From Alteromonadaceae bacterium (GTDB lineage: Bacteria; Pseudomonadota; Gammaproteobacteria; Enterobacterales; Alteromonadaceae), in contig JALUXV010000493.1 in assembly GCA_027013165.1 (NCBI GenBank), positions 1 through 37,230 of the forward strand: a stretch of DNA of 37,230 nt, written 5' to 3'. This document shows, piece after piece, positions 26,301 through 36,918 of the stretch. The notes under the pieces are model-generated. The model was not told the origin of the DNA and ran no database searches. It saw only the letters and a list, made by a program, of their open reading frames with translations. Both the position numbers and the translations under genes were made by a program. The first letter of the stretch is position 1; every line of letters starts with the position of its first letter.

Positions 26301-28331
26301 ATGCCCGCAATACTAATGTTGCTAATTTTAATGGTGATAAGTGGCACAGCGCATTCTTCGAGTTATCCAGATGAAGAGGTGTTATTTTCTATGTCGCTCG
26401 ACGAGTTGCTCGAAGCCAAATTTACTACAGCGACACTTACACCGGAAAAAGTCGATTCGGTGCCTGCGGCGTATTCTATTTTTACTCGAAATGAAATAAC
26501 TTCTCTTGGGGCAAGATACCTGCACGAATTACTCGAGTATGCTCCAGGGTTTCAGGTAACTCGATACGCTGACTTTTCTCAACAGTATTCCATCACGTCT
26601 CGTGGCTTAAATATTGGCTCATCGTCGAGAAAAATACTCTTCTTGATTGATGGCTTTGCCGCTAATGATCCTAGATCGGGTAGTGCAGAGAATTTGCTTA
26701 ACTACTCACTGGAACACGTGCAAAAAGTTGAAGTGCTACGAGGACCGGGCTCAGCAATTTACGGCTCAAATGCATTCACTGGTGTAGTAAATATCATTAC
26801 TCGCAGTAGAGACCGGCGAGTTCGTCTTCAAAGTGGAAATGAGATCACTTCAGACCTTTTTGTACAATCGTATAAAGACTTCAAATTGTTAAGCCTAAGT
26901 GGGCAAGTTAGCCTTATTAATTCAAGAGGCGACAACTACCGAGTATACGACTACCTCAATAATGCGAATAAAAGCATAGAAGACCCTTTTAATCAAAAAT
27001 CGGCAATCTTCACGCTGAGTAATAGTCGTCATAACCTTACATTGAACTATCGCTATCGAGAGTCAGAAGACTTTTATACTGTTGAGCGATTGAGTGATAG
27101 GTACGAAAACTACAACATCAGGTCAATGACTGGGATATTTTACAGTTATGAATTTGAATGGCTTAATTCCATTGAATCTCACGTTGATCTTAGTTATCTA
27201 GTTACTGAGCTAGAGACAGCTTCACAATCTACCCCTGTGGGTGCGTTTATCAACCTTAGTATACCGAACAGTGATGAACCTTTTTATGGGATAGGCTACC
27301 TTGAATCAAAAGGTCTTAAAGCTTCTTGGTTTAATAACTATCACTACGGGGAAAACGTCTCGATCCAATTTGGACTATCAGTACAAAACAGTGATGAAAC
27401 TCGTGCCGAAGGGGTAACGAATTTTGATTTAAATGGGTTAGTCAATGGTGACTTTCCTATTCGATACTCTAGTAATATCGACTTACCCGCTAAGGTAGGA
27501 ACTGAGGAAGGACAAGATGCGGCCGGGGCATTCTTCCAATACCAACATCAAGCTGGGTTCTGGAATTGGATAGTCGGCGGCCGATACGACCGCTTTGAGT
27601 CCATCGGTGGCCGATTTACTCCTAGGTTTGGTATTGTGTATGATTCGGGTAATCGCTTTCAGTTCAAAGCGCTGTACGGTCAAGCCTTTCGGTCACCCGA
27701 CCTTGCTGATTTAAACCTGTTTAATGGTATTGCCCGAGGAGGCAACGATTCACTTCGTTTTGAGTCAACCCAGTCTTTTGATTTTATTGTGCAATACAAG
27801 ACTTCCAGCACGCTTGCATCAGTAAATTATTTTGTTACTTCTTACGACGATCCCATTATCAATACGGAAATTGATGGTCAAACAACCTTGATTAACGGTG
27901 ATGCCTCTCAAGTTCGAGGGATAGAGGCAGAAGTGAAACACTTTTTAAATCAAGATTTATGGATACGAGTCGCATATACCCAGTACTTCGAGTTACCCGA
28001 TAGTGCGTTTAGAGAGTCAAAAAGATTGGTTAATTTTCATATTAGTCAGAGTATTGGAGAAAAAATTCTATTGGGATTAAGTGGAGATTACAGGTCATCT
28101 CGACGTACGTTAACGAATTCATTCCCACTAGAATTTAATAATATAAAATCCTATTGGCGGTTTAGGTTAATTTCTTATTACGAATTTAACGATAGATTGA
28201 CCTTTAGCCTTATTGTGAATAACCTTGAAGGAAACCAATATATTGGACCAGCCTTAGGGTCAGGGCTTCCCGATGGGGTTATCCACCCCGGAAGACAATG
28301 GACCGCGGGCTTTGAATGGGAATTTGATTAA
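26301..28331 (+). CDS. TonB-dependent outer-membrane receptor, signalling-associated type
   Basis: 676 residues: signal peptide (about 1-19, cleavage near TAHSS), then the segment MSLDELLEAKFTTATLTPEK, a pattern often seen in receptors of unknown ligand; a plug domain (residues about 50-160, with LHELLEYAPGFQVTR and VEVLRGPGSAIYGSNAFTGV); and a 22-strand beta-barrel ending in FEWEFD, where the last strand meets BAM requirements. Such receptors import ligands with TonB energy. No TonB box is evident. The next gene starts at its last stop base (TAATG) and encodes a YfiR-kinase fusion, so receptor and sensor are cotranslated. Ligand unknown; nothing nearby suggests siderophore or vitamin. Confidence 0.93.
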   Translation: MPAILMLLILMVISGTAHSSSYPDEEVLFSMSLDELLEAKFTTATLTPEKVDSVPAAYSIFTRNEITSLGARYLHELLEYAPGFQVTRYADFSQQYSITSRGLNIGSSSRKILFLIDGFAANDPRSGSAENLLNYSLEHVQKVEVLRGPGSAIYGSNAFTGVVNIITRSRDRRVRLQSGNEITSDLFVQSYKDFKLLSLSGQVSLINSRGDNYRVYDYLNNANKSIEDPFNQKSAIFTLSNSRHNLTLNYRYRESEDFYTVERLSDRYENYNIRSMTGIFYSYEFEWLNSIESHVDLSYLVTELETASQSTPVGAFINLSIPNSDEPFYGIGYLESKGLKASWFNNYHYGENVSIQFGLSVQNSDETRAEGVTNFDLNGLVNGDFPIRYSSNIDLPAKVGTEEGQDAAGAFFQYQHQAGFWNWIVGGRYDRFESIGGRFTPRFGIVYDSGNRFQFKALYGQAFRSPDLADLNLFNGIARGGNDSLRFESTQSFDFIVQYKTSSTLASVNYFVTSYDDPIINTEIDGQTTLINGDASQVRGIEAEVKHFLNQDLWIRVAYTQYFELPDSAFRESKRLVNFHISQSIGEKILLGLSGDYRSSRRTLTNSFPLEFNNIKSYWRFRLISYYEFNDRLTFSLIVNNLEGNQYIGPALGSGLPDGVIHPGRQWTAGFEWEFD

Positions 28332-30250
28332 TGAAAACACACATTGTGGCAATCTTCATTTGTTGCGTAGCCGCGATGTGCCATTCTTCAGCGTATGGCC
28401 AATTTTCTCAATATGACTTAAAAGTTGCCTTCATTAACAAATTTACAGGGTATGTAACATGGCCAGACAACCCAGATGAGATGATTGTTACTTATGTCGG
28501 AGAAGAGGATGTCTATTGGGAAAGCATTAAAAAACTTTCAGCAATAGATGCAGCGAACAAAACCTTTTTAGTATCACGAACATCGGGGTTTGAACCGGTG
28601 CCTTACTCTCACATTCTAGTTGTAAGCGCTAATTTAAATAATCACGTAGAGTACATTTTACAACAAATAGAAAACAAACCTACCTTACTGATAACGAATA
28701 ACTTTTTAGACAATGCTCTGATTGGTATCGACTTGGTTACACAAGAAGGCAGAACAATCTCTTTTAGTGTTAACCGCTACAATTTGGCGTTTCAAAACTT
28801 AGAAGTTGATCCAGACATTGTTTTGTTGGGGGGCTCAGAAGTTGACGTTGCCACGCTAGTGCGGGAAATGAATTCCCAACTTAATGAGTTAAATGCTGAG
28901 GTAGAAGAAAAAAATGCGTTATCCCGCTCATTGCAGGAAGACGTTGAATCAAGTCAAGCGTTACTTAATCAACAAGCAAGTGAATTGGAGCAACTGGCTT
29001 CGTCGTACACAGAGTTTCAGCAAAGGTACAACAGTCTAAACAGTGAATACGAGCCCCTTCGTCAAGCACTGGAAAGTGCTCAAGCTGAGTTAAATACGAG
29101 TCGAGAACAATTAGCAACTAATACTCAAGAGCTAGAAACTCTCAATAGTGAACTCGCAGAAAGAGCAACGGCTAATAATGCATTGAATGCTTTAATTGCA
29201 CAGAATCAGACGCGATTAAATGAACAAAATGAATTGTTAAGCCAACAAGATGCAGCGCTCCAGCAATCTAAGCAAACCATAGCGGTTCAAGACGAAACTC
29301 TACAGTCACAAAGTTCTACAATAAAAGCCCAGTCTATCGTTGTGTCTTTGGCGGTGGTCGTGGCCTTGTTAACGGGTATAACTGTTGTGTTGGTTTACCG
29401 TACCGCCAAACAACGACAGCGTTCCAATATTGTACTGCATGAAAAAAACCAGCAGCTAGAAGCAATGAACGAGCAAATTATCAATACGCAGGAACAATTG
29501 ATTCAGTCTGAAAAAATGGCATCGTTGGGCAACCTAGTGGCTGGCGTGGCTCATGAGATAAATACACCGCTGGGCGTAGGTATTACGGCAATTTCTCATT
29601 TGACCCATTCAACCCAAGAATTCGCTAAAACTGTTGAAGAAAATCGCCTCACCAAATCGCGAATGAATAGTTTTATAAAATTACTTATAGAAACTGGTGC
29701 TATTGTCGAGAATAACTTAACCCGAGCCGGTGAACTTATTAAAAACTTTAAGCAAGTGTCGGCCGACCAAACTACCGACGAGCTGCGCTCTATAGAGTTA
29801 AAGCAGTATATTGACGAGGTGGTTTTCAATTTGCACTTTAGGCTTAAAAAGGCCAAACATACCGTTAATGTCGTTAGCGAGACTAAACAAAAAATCAAGA
29901 CTTACCCGGGAATATTGGCACAAATCATCACTAATTTGGTGATGAATTCGGTGATCCACGGATTTAAGACAATTCAAAATGGAATTATCACCATTTCGAT
30001 AACACAACAGCAAGGGAAAGTCATAATCCACTATAAAGATAATGGGTGTGGTATTTCTGCCGAGGTGAGAAAGAATGTATTCGACCCCTTTTTTACTACG
30101 AATAGAGCCCATGGCGGAACTGGGCTTGGAATGCATATTTGTTATAACTTAATCAACCAAAAACTAGGTGGCACCATTGTTTGTGAACCCTCAGAGCAAG
30201 GCGCACATTTCATTATTGATTTTCCAATTCGTGGCTCGAATCAAGACTAG
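28331..30250 (+). CDS. YfiR-domain / coiled-coil / histidine kinase fusion
   Basis: 639 residues. Order: signal peptide (1-23, ending AYG); a YfiR/DUF4154 domain (about 25-168; DLKVAFINKFTGYVTWP at the front); a long predicted coiled coil (171-334) with no glycine and one proline (P242); one membrane helix (336-356); a short coiled coil; a HisKA domain with phospho-acceptor H408 (MASLGNLVAGVAHEINTPLG); and an ATPase domain with N-box NLVMNS (535-540), DNGCGI (570-575) and GTGLG (596-600). It should sense a periplasmic signal and phosphorylate a regulator encoded elsewhere, as none is adjacent. YfiR is normally a separate periplasmic partner of a diguanylate cyclase. Its 3' end overlaps the converging GGDEF-EAL gene by 38 bases. 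Confidence 0.9.
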   Translation: MKTHIVAIFICCVAAMCHSSAYGQFSQYDLKVAFINKFTGYVTWPDNPDEMIVTYVGEEDVYWESIKKLSAIDAANKTFLVSRTSGFEPVPYSHILVVSANLNNHVEYILQQIENKPTLLITNNFLDNALIGIDLVTQEGRTISFSVNRYNLAFQNLEVDPDIVLLGGSEVDVATLVREMNSQLNELNAEVEEKNALSRSLQEDVESSQALLNQQASELEQLASSYTEFQQRYNSLNSEYEPLRQALESAQAELNTSREQLATNTQELETLNSELAERATANNALNALIAQNQTRLNEQNELLSQQDAALQQSKQTIAVQDETLQSQSSTIKAQSIVVSLAVVVALLTGITVVLVYRTAKQRQRSNIVLHEKNQQLEAMNEQIINTQEQLIQSEKMASLGNLVAGVAHEINTPLGVGITAISHLTHSTQEFAKTVEENRLTKSRMNSFIKLLIETGAIVENNLTRAGELIKNFKQVSADQTTDELRSIELKQYIDEVVFNLHFRLKKAKHTVNVVSETKQKIKTYPGILAQIITNLVMNSVIHGFKTIQNGIITISITQQQGKVIIHYKDNGCGISAEVRKNVFDPFFTTNRAHGGTGLGMHICYNLINQKLGGTIVCEPSEQGAHFIIDFPIRGSNQD

Positions 30251-32717
30251 GTTGCTCTGCAATTGGTGCGAGCAATTGGGTTAAATCGGAAACACTCATA
30301 GCTTTACCGATATAAAAGCCCTGAATAAGGTCGCAACCAGCAGAATTCAAAAAATCTACTTGTTCTTCAGTTTCTACACCCTCAGCAATGACTCGCATAT
30401 TCAATTCTTTCGCAATAGTTATCATTGCTTTTATTAAGCTATTTGCTTCGTTTGTTTTGTTGATGTCCCACACAAATTCCCTGTCGATCTTTAAATTGTC
30501 GAATGGATACTGTCGTAGATAGCTCAATGAAGAATAACCAGTTCCGAAGTCATCCATAGCAAGTTTGAACCCAAAATTATGCAGTGCTTCTAGACACTCA
30601 GACGCTTTGAACTCATTACTTAGCAAAATGGTTTCAGTAATTTCTAACTCTAGTAGATGACGGGGAATATCGTAGAGCGAGGTTTTAGCAACGAGAGACT
30701 GAACAAAGTCAGGTTCTCTAAGCTGTCGCGGCGACAAGTTCATTGATACGCGAATAGGCTCGTCCTTATCTAGCTGCAGGCGAATAAAGGTAGCCACTTG
30801 CTCAAAGATAAATTCTCCGATAGCGACAATTAACCCTGACTGTTCCGCCACAGGAATAAATTCAGCTGGGCCAATTGGGCCAAGTTCTGGACAATTCCAA
30901 CGCAGTAAGCCTTCAACACTAACAATGCGCTTTAGTGCCAAGTCATATTGTGGTTGATAGTGAACCTCAAGCTGAGACTTTTCTAATGCGCGTCTTAAAT
31001 GACGCTCTATTAAATACCGGCGAGTGATTTCTCGGTCAATGGTGTCATCATATACGGTGAATCGGCCTTTACCCTGAGCTTTTGCTTTGTACATGGCAGA
31101 ATCTGCTTTACGCATCAAGGTAGACATGGTTCGACCATCGTCAGGGTAAATTACAACGCCTATACTACAGCTTACAAATAATTCATTGTTAGAAATGATA
31201 AATTGACGGGTCAGTGAATCGATAATCTTCTTCGCACTGTTACAGTAGTCGTTAACACTGGCGTGTTCAGAAAGTAAGACAACAAACTCGTCGCCCCCTA
31301 AACGAGCAAGTAAATCTGAATTACCAATAAGCTTGTAAAGTCGTGTGGCCGTTTCTTTTAACAGCTTGTCGCCAATTTCGTGCCCGAGTAAATCATTAAT
31401 GTCCTTAAAATTGTCTAAATCAATAAAAAGGAGCGCAAATTTGCGGTTTGTCTCAAGATTTTGCTGTATGAGTTGATTCATACGAACGCTTAAAAATGCG
31501 CGGTTCGCTAAACCTGTTAACTCGTCGTAATGCGCTTGATAATTCAATTTTAACTCAGCTTCTTTTCTGCCGGTTATTTCTCTGAATACAACGAGTATAC
31601 GATTAGCACTAGACATCAATAGTCGAATTTCAAAGTAGTGTTTTCGCTTTTGCTTAAGTATATCTATTTCAAAAGACACTAAATGGTTTGTGGTGCACAA
31701 CTGCCCAATATTGACAGATAGAAGCGTTTGCAAAGAAGAAGGAAGGCTAGCGTATATAGATCGGTTTATGTCTTTGCTCGACAGGTAGTCAAAGGACGAA
31801 TAGCGAGAAACCCGTAAGTCTAATATTTTTGCGTCGTCGTTAATCAAGACAAACACGTCAGGCATCACACTGAAAACTTCATTGAGTATTTTGTCTTTGT
31901 GATGACTCTCCGTGTAGGCATGCTCTCGCTCTTCGGCTCTAGAAATTAATTTCGCCGCCATATTGTTTAAAGCGTCTCCAAGTCGCTTAAATTCACCTGT
32001 ACCATGAATACGAGCACGTGTTTTTGTTTCGTCAATTGCAATTTTGTTCGCCGTTTTAAGCAGGTAATCTGTTGGAAGCTTTACAAAACGGTAAACCACT
32101 AACCCAGTAGCAGAGGACAAAAGTAGCAAGAGTAGGGCGGCGAGTGCACTGTTGTTCAGTGATTCTCTAATGGCATTTTGTAGATAAAGTTCTATGGAGT
32201 ACACGAGCAATACACGTCCACGAGATAATGAACGAATTTGCCCCCCAATAGGTGCTAACGTCAAAGGGGCCGAGACATAAATGTGTTTTAGGCCAGGATT
32301 AAATCCTGAGCTAATTCCATTGCCGTCCGCTGTTTGATAAAACAATGATGCTCTAGAGTTAATCTCACTGATATGCTGCCCTAAATGGCTCGCATTGGTT
32401 GAAAACATTACTCTGTCGTTGTTATCCAGCGCAATGAGTAGCTCGTATCCAATATTTACACCTCTAGCTCTAAGGGCTTGGTCGGCCCTATGAGATTCAT
32501 CGCCTTCTAAAAAATTATTCATTTCACGCACCAACGAGGCTACGTCTTGCTCGGCGTATTTAATGTTACTGCGCACAATATAATCTACGGTGGAGGTATA
32601 ACTGCTCCATAGTGAATACGTCCAAATAATTACCATTAAAAGAACGGTATAAAGTGGGATCCACAACTTTAAGTCTGCGGAAACAATATGGCGTAATCTA
32701 CTGCGTAATAAACTCAT
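30213..32717 (-). CDS. Membrane GGDEF-EAL protein with periplasmic sensor and HAMP
   Basis: 834 residues. First membrane helix about 18-38, a periplasmic sensor of about 150 residues, second helix about 188-210, HAMP (about 211-260), a PAS-like region (about 275-385), GGDEF (390-560) and EAL (570-815). The cyclase motif GGDEF (474-478) is intact; the inhibitory RxxD site is broken (GNSD at 465-468). The EAL motif reads E602-G-L, with the catalytic Glu kept, and DDFGTGYSS (722-730) and the other metal residues are present, so hydrolysis is likely. It makes and/or degrades cyclic di-GMP. The start lies inside the last 20 bases of the substrate-binding protein gene, so the two are coupled. Confidence 0.92.
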   Translation of the reverse strand: MSLLRSRLRHIVSADLKLWIPLYTVLLMVIIWTYSLWSSYTSTVDYIVRSNIKYAEQDVASLVREMNNFLEGDESHRADQALRARGVNIGYELLIALDNNDRVMFSTNASHLGQHISEINSRASLFYQTADGNGISSGFNPGLKHIYVSAPLTLAPIGGQIRSLSRGRVLLVYSIELYLQNAIRESLNNSALAALLLLLLSSATGLVVYRFVKLPTDYLLKTANKIAIDETKTRARIHGTGEFKRLGDALNNMAAKLISRAEEREHAYTESHHKDKILNEVFSVMPDVFVLINDDAKILDLRVSRYSSFDYLSSKDINRSIYASLPSSLQTLLSVNIGQLCTTNHLVSFEIDILKQKRKHYFEIRLLMSSANRILVVFREITGRKEAELKLNYQAHYDELTGLANRAFLSVRMNQLIQQNLETNRKFALLFIDLDNFKDINDLLGHEIGDKLLKETATRLYKLIGNSDLLARLGGDEFVVLLSEHASVNDYCNSAKKIIDSLTRQFIISNNELFVSCSIGVVIYPDDGRTMSTLMRKADSAMYKAKAQGKGRFTVYDDTIDREITRRYLIERHLRRALEKSQLEVHYQPQYDLALKRIVSVEGLLRWNCPELGPIGPAEFIPVAEQSGLIVAIGEFIFEQVATFIRLQLDKDEPIRVSMNLSPRQLREPDFVQSLVAKTSLYDIPRHLLELEITETILLSNEFKASECLEALHNFGFKLAMDDFGTGYSSLSYLRQYPFDNLKIDREFVWDINKTNEANSLIKAMITIAKELNMRVIAEGVETEEQVDFLNSAGCDLIQGFYIGKAMSVSDLTQLLAPIAEQPSLDSSHELENQ

Positions 32718-33645
32718 TGGTAATCAGTTGCTCGGGTTCTTGATAGTTCAATAGTAGGTCGTTTGATTTCATTATCGCTTCTAAACGTCGGGCGGTTTGG
32801 GTTAATGATGATGGCGATCCACTCATGAGCGCTTGTACTTCTGATAGACTCGGTAAATGTATTTTTTCTAATGTAGTATCTACATACTGAATCTCTGTAC
32901 GCATGAACTTACTCAAATATTGACGGGTGAGATCCGGTTGGGCCTGCATAAATTCACGTGCGCGGTAATAACCTTCTACTAGCGCGTGGATGGTTTCAGG
33001 ACTTTCTTCGATTACCTCTCGTTTCACAGCTAGCACGTCTATGACCGAATTTGGAATGTGTCCACTGTCAAATAGTACGACTGCGCCGCTACTCACTAAA
33101 CGCGTAACAATAGGCTCAAAGGTCACAATACCGTCTGCATGCTCGAAACAGGTCATGTGTTGATCATATGAGCAGTTAATAACGTTTATTTCATTTATAG
33201 AGAGGTTAACCGACGTCAAGGCTCGGTCTAACATAAAACCACCTACGGCAGATCGCTCTACCGCTAGGGATTTACCTTTAAAATCTTCGATTGTCTTTAT
33301 ATAGGGTTTTGCGACGAGTGCGTCTGCACCGTTAGAAGTGTCGAGAATCATTACGATTTGAACATCTATGCCCAAATCGATTACAGTCAGTACCTCGTCC
33401 AGTGTCAGTGCTGCTGCTTCTAGGTTACCCATCGCCAACGCGTGAATAGTTTCGGTGGTAGAGGGTAGTTCAATAACGTCGATGTTGTCGCGATGAAACA
33501 ACGAATTGCGCTTAGCGATATATAAAGGGGCGTAACCAGGCCAACTATTGATTCCAAGCCGAAAAGGTTTCTCGTGCGTTGTAAAACACGATGAAACTAA
33601 TAATGCTAACAATAGAATACATGCCGAATGTAATCTTGCACCCAC
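32698..33645 (-). CDS. Orphan ABC-type substrate-binding lipoprotein (NMT1/SsuA/TauA-like)
   Basis: About 315 residues. I chose the GTG at 33645: AAGGA lies seven bases before it and it gives a compact lipoprotein signal ending LLVSSC with the lipidated Cys at about position 20. A GTG at 33699 would add 18 polar residues and lacks a ribosome site. The mature protein begins with LGINSWPGYAPLYIAKRNSL, the hallmark of nitrate/taurine/thiamine-precursor binding proteins, followed by TTETIHALAMGNLEAAALTLDE. No permease or ATPase gene is present; the next gene is a GGDEF-EAL protein that overlaps its end by 20 bases, which suggests ligand sensing rather than import. A TATACT on the minus strand at 33716-33711 may be its -10. 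Confidence 0.87.
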   Translation of the reverse strand: MGARLHSACILLLALLVSSCFTTHEKPFRLGINSWPGYAPLYIAKRNSLFHRDNIDVIELPSTTETIHALAMGNLEAAALTLDEVLTVIDLGIDVQIVMILDTSNGADALVAKPYIKTIEDFKGKSLAVERSAVGGFMLDRALTSVNLSINEINVINCSYDQHMTCFEHADGIVTFEPIVTRLVSSGAVVLFDSGHIPNSVIDVLAVKREVIEESPETIHALVEGYYRAREFMQAQPDLTRQYLSKFMRTEIQYVDTTLEKIHLPSLSEVQALMSGSPSSLTQTARRLEAIMKSNDLLLNYQEPEQLITNEFITQ

Positions 33646-33730
33646 GTGATAATCCTTATCTACAAAAAAGTGTACAACATTAAATCGAAGAAATTTCACA
33701 CTACACTAGTAGTATAGAACACTAAGCAGA

Positions 33731-33876: not shown

Positions 33877-35078
33877 CAGTTTATTCAACTTAAGCCGAAG
33901 TCTCAATGGCGTGAAGGTGTAACCACCCAAAGCTTGATCGCTGAATTTGATAACCTGATTAACTTCCCCGGATTAACCAATGCCTGGGTAATGCCCATAA
34001 AAACCCGTATCGACATGTTGGCCACTGGAATTAAAACCCCTTTGGGTATAAAAATAGGCGGGCCTGATTTAACTATAATTCAATCGATTGGAAAAAAAAT
34101 CGAAACTATTCTTGGGTCAATGGATGGCACGGCTTCAGTATACGCAGAGAGAGTTGCTGGGGGCGTTACGTTACCATAGACATTGATAGGTTAAGCGCTG
34201 CTAGATACGGCCTCAATATATCAGATGTTCAATCTTTTATTGCCAGTGCTGTCGGCGGTACCAATATTACTAGCAGTGTCGAAGGGCGAGAGAGATACCC
34301 GGTTCAAATACGTTTTCCGCAAGACTATCGAGATTCTCCAGAATCACTACGGCGATTGCCTTTTGTTACGCCAAGTGGTGCACATATTCAATTAGGTGAC
34401 ATTACTTCAATTCAGATTGAAGACAGCCCACCTATGATTAAAAGTGAGAATGCCCGTCCAAATGGTTGGGTTTACGTTGATATTGAAAACATAGATGTGG
34501 CCCAATATGTCACTCACGCGAACGAACTGATTCAACAGCAACTGGAGTTACCAGCAGGGTATTCACTGACATGGAGCGGACAGTACGAATATATGGAACG
34601 GGCTAAGGCGAAATTAACCTATGTTGTACCGCTAACACTGGCAATCATCATTATATTGCTTTACGCCAGCTTCAGAAGCTTTCCGCAGGTTGTAATGATT
34701 ATTGGTACCTTACCATTCGCGCTTATTGGCGGAGTTTGGCTGTTATATTTAGAAAATTTCAATTTTTCAGTGGCGGTAGGCGTTGGGTTTATTGCTTTAG
34801 CTGGAGTCGCCGTTGAAATTGGAATCATTATGCTGGTTTATTTAGACAGCAAATGCAATGAACTGAAAGATAACTTCAGTAACGAAGCACTTAAAAGAGC
34901 CATTATTGAAGGTTCAGAACAGCGTATTCGTCCAGTTATGATGACTTCAACATCAATCATTTTTGGGTTAACGCCGGTACTATATAGCGAGGGAACAGGG
35001 GCTGAAGTCATGAGCCGAATTGCTGCGCCCATGGTGGGTTTTCTTAAATATAAATCAGAATTTCAGTATAGGAACTGA
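33877..35078 (+). pseudogene. CusA-like heavy-metal RND efflux pump, truncated and frameshifted remnant
   Basis: The sequence from 33877 reads QFIQLKPKSQWREGVTT and continues as a heavy-metal RND pump (CusA/CzcA type: RIDMLATGIKTPLGIKI). At 34159-34163 a run of five G breaks the frame; one extra G would join it to the second part (GRYVTIDIDRLSAARYGLNI onwards), which runs in frame to about 35039 (RIAAPMVG). There the similarity stops abruptly and the frame ends at 35078 in unrelated residues. Roughly 390 residues of a protein of about 1,040 remain, covering the porter loop and part of the second membrane half. Both ends and the frame are damaged, so no functional pump is made. No CusB or CusC gene is seen. 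Confidence 0.88.
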
Positions 35079-35352: not shown

Positions 35353-36051
35353 TTGTACAAAATTATTAACTTTTTAGCTTTTATCGGTTGTATTTTTTGG
35401 CTTTTGATCGAACAGAGCCCAGAACCGGTAGTTGTGCTACTTCTAACTATTGCCGGTTTTTTCCGAGATGACGTTCATGGAATCATAGGTAAAAACGTAT
35501 TTACGCTCACCCCCAAGAATCAACTTATTCGTGATCTTGAATCGTGTAGGTTCTCATTTATAAATCAAGAATTTATTAATCCACTGATATTAGATGATTT
35601 ATCAGGTTGGCTGAGTGATACTGGAGACCAAATTGTATCCATCAACATTTCTGAATCAAATAAGTCAAATCGATATTATGGTGAAATCACGATTGAAGAG
35701 GCAGATGGATATCCCACTGTTACATCTACACCTAGAGTAGGGTGGGTTTCGTATAGGTATATTGGCTGCTCATTCAGTGGCGTACATATAGTTCAAATAT
35801 GGTCAAATGGTGGTGGTACGGGCGTTTCTACAAACATTATGCTGGTTACACTAAGTTCAGATTCATCATTTGAATCAAATGGTGTTAGTTACGATAAGAA
35901 ATCTAGGTACGTTATAAAGTTGATCGGTTCATTACCTCTTGGTGATAGATACCAAGGGCGAATCAACTATAAGTTTGGTGTCTTATCAATATCTCCTTGC
36001 GAAGGGGTGAAATCACTAAGAAAGACAGGCGCCAAAGTTGTCGTCCTGTAA
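35353..36051 (+). CDS. Hypothetical protein with one or two N-terminal membrane helices
   Basis: 232 residues from a TTG at 35353, with AAGGA about ten bases upstream. Hydrophobic residues about 3-37 form one long or two short helices (INFLAFIGCIFWLLI and VVVLLLTIAGFF). The rest is a soluble beta-rich domain with three cysteines (DLESCRF, YIGCSF, SPCEG) and a GGGTG loop near 150. No family recognised. It lies between the pseudogene and another orphan gene on the same strand. Composition is more AT-rich than the neighbouring housekeeping genes, suggesting later acquisition; that is inference by eye. Confidence 0.65.
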   Translation: MYKIINFLAFIGCIFWLLIEQSPEPVVVLLLTIAGFFRDDVHGIIGKNVFTLTPKNQLIRDLESCRFSFINQEFINPLILDDLSGWLSDTGDQIVSINISESNKSNRYYGEITIEEADGYPTVTSTPRVGWVSYRYIGCSFSGVHIVQIWSNGGGTGVSTNIMLVTLSSDSSFESNGVSYDKKSRYVIKLIGSLPLGDRYQGRINYKFGVLSISPCEGVKSLRKTGAKVVVL

Positions 36052-36135
36052 GACTATAAAAATTGCAGTTCGACATGTTTCCGTTGAGCCGATGTCGTAT
36101 GGGTATTTATTTTTTGAAAATTGGGGCACGCTCTT

Positions 36136-36918
36136 ATGGGATTATGCAAGCTAACCAAAACTAGTGGCAAATTTGTGAAATCTCACATAATCCCAAAAGC
36201 ACTGACCAGGCCTACAGTCAGAGGTAATAAGTTCATCCAAAAATCTGTTACCTCTGCACAATCACTTTATATTAAAAGAGCAGATAGCTGGTACGATCAA
36301 GGAATAGTAACAAGAGAAGGTGAGAATTATCTTTCTGATTTTGATGCGCATGCAATCAAAGAGCTAAGAGATAGAGGGATACTTTGGTCGAGCAACACGA
36401 TTGCCCATCCAGCTACTTCTTCCACAAATGAAATAATGGTTACAAGTTTTGAAAACCCCAATAAGATGAGATTATTTTTCTTGAGTCTTCTTTGGCGAGC
36501 GTCAGTTTCAACATTAGCAGAATTGGCGGATATAATTTTACCTTCAGAGAAAGTTGAAAGACTTCGCCGTATAATAATAGGAGAAGAAGATGATGATTTG
36601 TCATTTTTTCCTACAGCGCTAATTCAGCTTACTGAGAAAGGACCTATTCATAATTTCATACCTATAAAGCAAACAATTGGTCAAAGCAAAAAAGAAATAA
36701 TCCGATTCTACATGGACGGTTTAATTGCTCATATGCACCTAGAGGACCCGACCCTTGCTGTTTTAAACTCTCCGATTCCATGGGAGCATTCTATGTTTAT
36801 TGGTCATTCAAAGACTATCATAGTACAAGTTAAAACAAGTGATTCGTTTCATTTAGCTAATCTAACCAAGCTAGTAAAAGAATACGAGCAATATAGAAAT
36901 GACAAGCCTGGTATATAG
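36136..36918 (+). CDS. Orphan protein with an HNH-like SHIIPKAL motif
   Basis: About 260 residues from the ATG at 36136; a TTG at 36121 would add five. Near the front LCKLTKTSGKFVKSHIIPKA recalls the CxxC...SHIIP segment of HNH (treble-clef) nucleases and of a group of uncharacterised proteins in variable regions. However, the first zinc knuckle keeps only one cysteine, so nuclease activity is doubtful. The remainder is alpha-helical (residues 100-150, LFFLSLLWRASVSTLAELAD) with no further motif I recognise. It follows the preceding orphan gene by about 85 bases and could be cotranscribed. A role in genome defence is speculation. Confidence 0.65.
   Translation: MGLCKLTKTSGKFVKSHIIPKALTRPTVRGNKFIQKSVTSAQSLYIKRADSWYDQGIVTREGENYLSDFDAHAIKELRDRGILWSSNTIAHPATSSTNEIMVTSFENPNKMRLFFLSLLWRASVSTLAELADIILPSEKVERLRRIIIGEEDDDLSFFPTALIQLTEKGPIHNFIPIKQTIGQSKKEIIRFYMDGLIAHMHLEDPTLAVLNSPIPWEHSMFIGHSKTIIVQVKTSDSFHLANLTKLVKEYEQYRNDKPGI

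Follow-up and report, generated by a model that had tools for sequence, protein, structure and literature searches.

A TonB-dependent receptor gene overlapping a YfiR–coil–histidine kinase gene, and a possible outer-to-inner membrane signalling line in Alteromonadaceae

The YfiBNR system consists, in the portions of the literature consulted, of the outer-membrane protein YfiB, the periplasmic protein YfiR and the inner-membrane diguanylate cyclase YfiN, and HmsCDE is named alongside it. Here we describe a locus in a 37,230-nucleotide stretch of DNA from an Alteromonadaceae bacterium (assembly GCA_027013165.1, contig JALUXV010000493.1; this whole stretch is called the window), in which the gene of a TonB-dependent receptor is followed by that of a histidine kinase carrying a YfiR domain on a long coiled coil. 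As in YfiBNR, YfiR would be placed between a partner in the outer membrane and a signalling enzyme in the inner membrane, and since in that system the outer-membrane partner binds YfiR through its N-terminal tail, we propose by analogy that the same may hold here. Unlike in YfiBNR, YfiR is here fused to a kinase on a coil of ∼24 nm and the output is that of a kinase; moreover a TonB-dependent receptor, instead of an OmpA-like lipoprotein, is the linked partner, and the fusion has no CHASE8, which is a domain of YfiN. Our reading, to which we give a probability of about 0.52, is that the YfiR head on its coil binds outer-membrane proteins that bear a short sequence box and signals to the phospho-acceptor His408, thus forming an outer-to-inner membrane signalling line.

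Other described systems share single features with this arrangement. In FecA-FecR-FecI surface signalling a TonB-dependent receptor is likewise the source of the signal, whereas the present receptor has no STN domain, no sigma or anti-sigma gene (FecI/FecR) was found by Pfam among the neighbour proteins scanned, and a kinase is present instead. In NlpE-CpxA, as in RcsF-IgaA, an outer-membrane component contacts an inner-membrane component across the periplasm, and it is the outer-membrane lipoprotein that makes the reach, whereas here the kinase itself would do so. For RcsF-IgaA this contact, and the dependence of Rcs on periplasm width, are described in the consulted part of one report (PMC5736177). 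Heptad-spaced coiled-coil linkers of sensor kinases and cyclases, such as those of photoreceptors and the BvgS family, are described, in the portions consulted, as varying by multiples of seven, as is the case here; to our knowledge these are short linkers, whereas the quantised path of the present kinases includes a periplasmic coil of ∼165 residues and the membrane. A literature search of open-access papers, with subscription papers outside its scope, returned nothing on YfiR-linked TonB-dependent receptors or YfiR-kinases.

The fused kinase and the length of its coil

The first-pass annotation had described a receptor gene overlapping by one base a gene for a YfiR domain, a 164-residue glycine-free coil, a membrane helix and a histidine kinase, and this description was borne out. 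The receptor stop TAA (28329–28331) and the kinase start ATG (28331–28333) have one base in common and read TAATG, and kinase residues 171–334 contain no glycine and, as we add, a single proline (P242). The head matches DUF4154/YfiR (PF13689) in Pfam over residues 28–166 (E 5.7e-16, profile positions 1–141 of 143), and the PDB matches of a profile built from YfiR heads (A2) are all YfiR entries (4yn7 and others, E 6e-11). Between head and coil lies a GGSE anchor (residues 167–170). The protein has the two marks of a histidine kinase, an H-box recognised by its motif AGVAHEINTP and a HATPase_c match (E 9e-21), with HisKA staying below its cut-off; HAMP, PAS and CHASE8 were not found in it by Pfam. 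The same annotation had regarded a YfiR-kinase fusion as unusual, which did not hold: 58 long-frame PF13689 matches were retrieved in the family, where the fusion is common, and it recurred among the 68 relatives examined. In the genome of the window PF13689 has a single match, which is the fused one, and a free periplasmic YfiR of the YfiBNR kind is not present. Within the genus, taken to be Alteromonas from the named relative Alteromonas sp. KUL49, PF13689 occurs in a long open frame in two of 59 genomes (G000 and G939). KUL49 has the same gene pair (kinase 74%, receptor 63% identical).

Hydrophobic residues of the coil peak at a period of 3.50 over its 164 residues, with a power matched by none of 1000 shuffles, which is the signature of a coiled coil. 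An AlphaFold2 model of the kinase, calculated as a monomer from a two-row alignment, showed an uninterrupted helix over residues 173–352, with a predicted local distance difference test score (pLDDT) of about 70–80 over residues 181–320 in a model of mean pLDDT 50.3. From the end of YfiR to the membrane helix there are 152–184 residues in 60 fused proteins (mean 166, standard deviation 8), the ends being set by Pfam coordinates and hydropathy; the length does not vary freely. Taking a rise of about 0.15 nm per residue, these lengths correspond to about 23–28 nm across the fusions. For wild-type E. coli in hyperosmotic medium the consulted part of one report gives 30–32 nm between the membranes (PMC8824477). 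Length and period fit an extended rod of periplasm length, which would reach the outer membrane. Coils of 183–184 residues, with about three extra heptads, were seen in YfiR-kinases of genus g11 (L050, L053, L060, L061 and L072), whose genomes are of 2.6–2.9 Mb.

The distance from the first glycine of the anchor to the phospho-acceptor histidine takes values of 220 (n = 1), 227 (21), 234 (8), 241 (7, the window kinase included), 248 (6) and 255 residues (2), and thus equals 3 modulo 7 in 45 of 55 fused proteins; in three of the 248 cases the anchor is shifted by one residue and its motif is GxE, and the count leaves out 14 of 69 fused proteins in which an anchor is missing. Of the seven kinases whose H-box is of a different type (FLANMSHE and others), six fall in class 1 modulo 7, and exceptions are L115 (236) and L076, L088 and L090 (all 231). 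When a tree of 48 proteins was built from their YfiR and kinase parts, with the coil excluded, 12 of 14 length changes on it were multiples of seven (binomial p 5e-9 against 1/7); with the seven other-H-box kinases added this became 14 of 20, and some of the changes that missed are artefacts arising from the root state. Membrane-to-histidine length is 62 or 63 in all 14 members of the clade of the window kinase, hence the sevens lie in the periplasm there, and the periplasmic part measures 172, 179, 186 or 193 residues in ten members, 178 in three and 169 in one. Lengths that step in sevens indicate that the helix phase is preserved all the way from YfiR across the membrane to the histidine, with the length staying in the range of a periplasm. 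These results bear on whether the coil could be flexible or folded back, leaving the head near the inner membrane, for which the single proline and the two-row monomer nature of the model can be cited; we consider this very improbable, because the modelled helix is unbroken, the 3.50 period runs over all 164 residues and the steps of seven extend over the whole path to the histidine.

A pre-plug box shared by YfiR-linked receptors

The receptor of the window matches Plug (E 7e-19) and the TonB barrel (5e-24) in Pfam and is thus a plug-and-barrel protein, and the absence of an STN match sets it apart from FecA-type transducers. Directly before the plug, YfiR-linked receptors carry a box of the form xLSLEELxxxxVTxxS (LSLEEL..VT). 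With a profile trained on one half of the linked receptors, all 46 scored at least 10.0 bits in a held-out test in which close relatives occurred in both halves; the box of the window receptor scored 34.0 and 35.7 bits with that receptor itself forming part of the profile. When the profile of all 46 was applied to other receptors of this genome, 26 of 28 scored below 0 bits and two did not (L192, 26.7; L166, 13.3). These 28 distinct controls, the window receptor not counted, come from 30 of the 57 plug matches of the genome; one of the 30 loci (L168) returned the receptor of its neighbour, L167, which was counted once. The box did not bias the selection of receptors, since a second receptor profile, from which box receptors had been excluded, detected none in the loci beyond those already known. 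When the window is compared with KUL49, 22 of 23 box positions are identical, as are 69 of 73 in the segment that joins the last part of the YfiR head to the first part of the coil (residues 113–185), compared with 63% for the whole receptor and 74% for the whole kinase; against L090 and L065 the box is no more conserved than the plug, and residues 113–185 are conserved above the rest of the head. Judged by eye, the V-T portion of the box occupies roughly the position that a TonB-box-like stretch has in other receptors of the genome. That the box would be exclusive to YfiR-adjacent receptors was ruled out by the two of 28 distinct other receptors that carry it. Box-bearing TonB-dependent receptors with no adjoining YfiR gene are encoded in this genome at L193 (9202–11181) and L194 (3624–5660), and they are candidate partners in trans of the window kinase.

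The linkage of receptors to YfiR was counted over 113 YfiR genes, 70 fused and 43 free, after seven of 120 loci had been dropped for overlapping open reading frames (L111, L112, L113, L114, L145, L154 and L159; a receptor adjoins YfiR in five of these). The gene next upstream encodes a receptor for 19 of 64 fused YfiR genes and for 22 of 43 free ones, and the gene next downstream does so for two of 68 and two of 43, respectively; two or three genes away it occupies two of 254 fused and seven of 168 free positions. Upstream compared with two to three genes away gives Fisher p values of 8e-13 (fused) and 2e-12 (free), which overstate the case because the samples share descent. Free YfiR often lies within an operon of receptor, YfiR and kinase or of receptor, YfiR and GGDEF, and CHASE8 was present in all six kinases scanned downstream of free YfiR (five above the cut-off, one just under). 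Thus, judged from sequence, the pair in the window resembles a common operon of outer-membrane barrel, free YfiR and CHASE8 kinase or diguanylate cyclase, with YfiR and kinase joined in one polypeptide and the coil replacing CHASE8.

The box is also found on a second kind of barrel. In operons of free YfiR and GGDEF-EAL the upstream gene often encodes a protein of ∼350 amino acids, and A[ED][ML]S[LF][QN][EDQ]L follows the signal peptide directly in all eight such proteins with an intact start (L120, L121, L123, L125, L130, L133, L135 and L136; L137, cut short, was left out). Seven of the eight match PF13557 (Phenol_MetA_deg), which we take to be an outer-membrane barrel family, six of them above the cut-off, and L120 has no match; two weakly match an outer-membrane barrel family, and none matched the receptor profiles. 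Two barrel kinds therefore carry the same box before YfiR.

Across genomes the box follows YfiR as well. A box was counted when a listed match of a box-plus-plug profile (A3) began at column 3 or before. Among 14 genomes, box matches were among those listed in all seven with a YfiR-coil kinase and in none of the other seven (five without YfiR, two with free YfiR only). In the family (196 genomes, E ≤ 1e-30) at least 67 genomes have a box match, of which 66 belong to the 120 with YfiR, while the remaining one, G107 (80% complete), belongs to the 76 without; here 16 of 83 genomes were counted as box-negative with matches that start past the box or are not listed (10 with YfiR, six without). In the order (394 genomes, E ≤ 1e-38) all 63 box genomes are among the 134 with YfiR. 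Because YfiR-linked receptors, some of them from the same genomes, served to build A3, and many hits are YfiR-linked, this co-occurrence is not independent of linkage. The independent part concerns the uvrD locus, where a fused kinase gene lies beside uvrD and an EamA-type transporter gene (Pfam-checked in L036, elsewhere assigned by gene order): all 13 genomes without a receptor beside this kinase (G069, G130, G079, G101, G076, G169, G013, G150, G124, G061, G025, G095 and G039) encode one or more box receptors that lie apart from all YfiR matches listed, G079 and G101 each having one further YfiR match outside that list. None of these unlinked receptors is orthologous to the uvrD-locus receptor of G021. 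Relocation of that receptor in relatives without it at the locus was rejected, since an orthologue was found in none of the 13, which gave only partial matches of 25–38% identity.

Linkage might also reflect co-regulation, the kinase regulating the receptor gene and its head answering a different YfiB-like protein of the outer membrane or the peptidoglycan. Of the 19 receptors upstream of fusions, nine are co-directional and ten divergent, the latter like regulator-target pairs, and the outer-membrane protein proven to partner YfiR is the OmpA-like YfiB in the consulted parts of two reports (PMC4887326, PMC4655355). No YfiB-like OmpA lipoprotein was found among the Pfam-scanned neighbours, the rest of the genome not having been searched for one. 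We regard co-regulation as quite unlikely, since box receptors co-occur with YfiR even where unlinked and the window receptor gene lies upstream of the kinase gene and overlaps it.

Possible mechanism and competing explanations

In the proposed signalling line two parallel chains would form a coiled coil of about 24 nm, with the YfiR head at its distal tip binding the N-terminal box of outer-membrane proteins, namely the overlapping receptor and perhaps two further box receptors in trans. A change in the receptor tail, through ligand or TonB pulling, would alter the head. In the consulted parts of two reports YfiR is a dimer (PMC4887326, PMC4655355), and in the crystal structure of YfiB with YfiR described in one of them the N-terminal loop of YfiB inserts F48, W55 and F57 into pockets of YfiR formed partly by its C-terminal part (PMC4887326). 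In the fusions the sequence continues from the C-terminal end of YfiR into the coil. The box may take the role of the YfiB tail, and occupancy of the pocket might then turn or unwind the start of the coil, whose rotation or register shift would pass the single membrane helix to His408.

Several observations weigh against this proposal. Of the 64 fusions whose upstream gene could be read, 45 have no receptor immediately before them, and kinases are retained even where the orthologue of the linked receptor is missing. The loose box pattern occurs in 40 of 51 adjacent and 6 of 11 non-adjacent receptors of the fetched loci, which is not a significant difference (p 0.13), five of those six lying within 2.3 kb of a YfiR gene, two to three genes away, or in the same cluster; and in this genome the box also occurs in two receptors that have no YfiR gene beside them. 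In the family (E ≤ 1e-30), 54 of 120 YfiR genomes have no box match among the matches listed, and at the same threshold no box receptor was found in five g11 genomes with YfiR-kinases or in five genomes with DDKND-type fusions (G030, G041, G046, G056 and G084). Heptad insertions and deletions are normal in any coiled coil and alone do not prove that the periplasm is spanned, and in the AlphaFold2 models the head has a pLDDT of 24–40 and the receptor a mean of 27.6. The idea put forward in the first-pass annotation, that the head could touch the receptor plug and signal directly from outer to inner membrane without TonB/FecR-type relays, is partly supported, by the continuity and limited length range of the coil, the helix being neither broken nor folded back in the low-confidence monomer model, and the 3.5 period and the sevens agreeing; it is not upheld by receptor adjacency, and its pairing of receptor with fusion holds in the form of box receptors elsewhere in the 13 uvrD-locus genomes.

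The persistence of kinases without a linked receptor would suit a different arrangement, in which the receptor imports a ligand with TonB, the YfiR head binds this ligand in the periplasm and the coil is a phase-keeping stalk. Similarity of YfiR to a single subdomain of a periplasmic ligand-binding protein, and weak binding of vitamin B6 or Trp, are reported in the consulted parts of two papers (PMC4655355, PMC4887326). Such a ligand sensor leaves unexplained why no coil among 60 is shorter than 152 residues, why the box is present on two kinds of upstream barrel and why box and YfiR co-occur, and we consider it unlikely.

Gene context, outputs of relatives and significance

Table 1. Features of the receptor–kinase locus (window positions)
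Feature	Position	Strand	Basis
TonB-dependent receptor, 676 amino acids (signal peptide, pre-plug box, plug, barrel)	26301..28331	+	open reading frame, Pfam
Pre-plug box of receptor, residues 28–50, LFSMSLDELLEAKFTTATLTPEK	26382..26450	+	sequence comparison, profile
Receptor plug domain	26451..26786	+	Pfam
Receptor beta-barrel domain	26949..28226	+	Pfam
YfiR-coil-histidine kinase, 639 amino acids	28331..30250	+	open reading frame, Pfam
Kinase signal peptide, about residues 1–23	28331..28399	+	by eye
YfiR (DUF4154) head, residues 28–166	28412..28828	+	Pfam, profile
Glycine-free coiled coil, residues 171–334	28841..29332	+	periodicity, AlphaFold2
Single transmembrane helix, about residues 336–357	29336..29401	+	hydropathy
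Cytoplasmic stretch, membrane to H-box	29402..29551	+	Pfam: no HAMP/PAS
Phospho-acceptor His408 (AGVAHEINTP), 241 residues past G167 of GGSE anchor	29552..29554	+	motif
HATPase_c of kinase	29915..30229	+	Pfam
Convergent HAMP-GGDEF-EAL gene overlapping kinase 3′ end	30213..32717	-	Pfam

The convergent HAMP-GGDEF-EAL gene is shared by KUL49, 3′ of its kinase gene. Other genes of the window include one for an NMT1-like binding protein (32698–33699, Pfam), which overlaps the start of the minus-strand GGDEF-EAL gene, and the two may possibly form a separate pair leading from ligand to cyclic di-GMP (c-di-GMP). Positions 34356–35078 encode, judged by eye, the C-terminal portion of a CusA-like efflux protein of the RND type, whose end diverges from the family and which is probably truncated, and the open reading frames 35353–36051 and 36121–36918 have no Pfam match.

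In relatives the same head and coil are also joined to hybrid kinases with receivers (L068, L077 and L116) and to GAF kinases (L078 and L079), and L087 (6931–8526) encodes a single YfiR-coil-GGDEF chain with a coil of about 156 residues. In 17 of 64 fusions, all at the uvrD locus (L036, L037, L039–L045, L047, L048, L052, L054, L055 and L057–L059), the first or second gene upstream contains GGDEF, encoding receiver-receiver-GGDEF in L036, and in six of these loci a divergent box receptor stands between the GGDEF gene and the YfiR-kinase. Because of such GGDEF/EAL neighbours and the GGDEF fusion, c-di-GMP output is likely for the YfiR-kinases of many relatives; for the window kinase a link through the convergent HAMP-GGDEF-EAL gene is possible and here a guess.

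Tentatively, and at somewhat less than even odds, these proteins would represent a class of kinases that cross the whole periplasm, make direct contact with outer-membrane proteins by docking of the YfiR head on the short N-terminal box that both barrel kinds have, serve several receptors in trans and transmit by coil rotation over ∼24 nm and across the membrane. If the proposed signalling line is true, a short sequence box would predict which receptors signal via YfiR, the kinase would span the periplasm, and the state of an outer-membrane receptor would be directly readable inside the cell.

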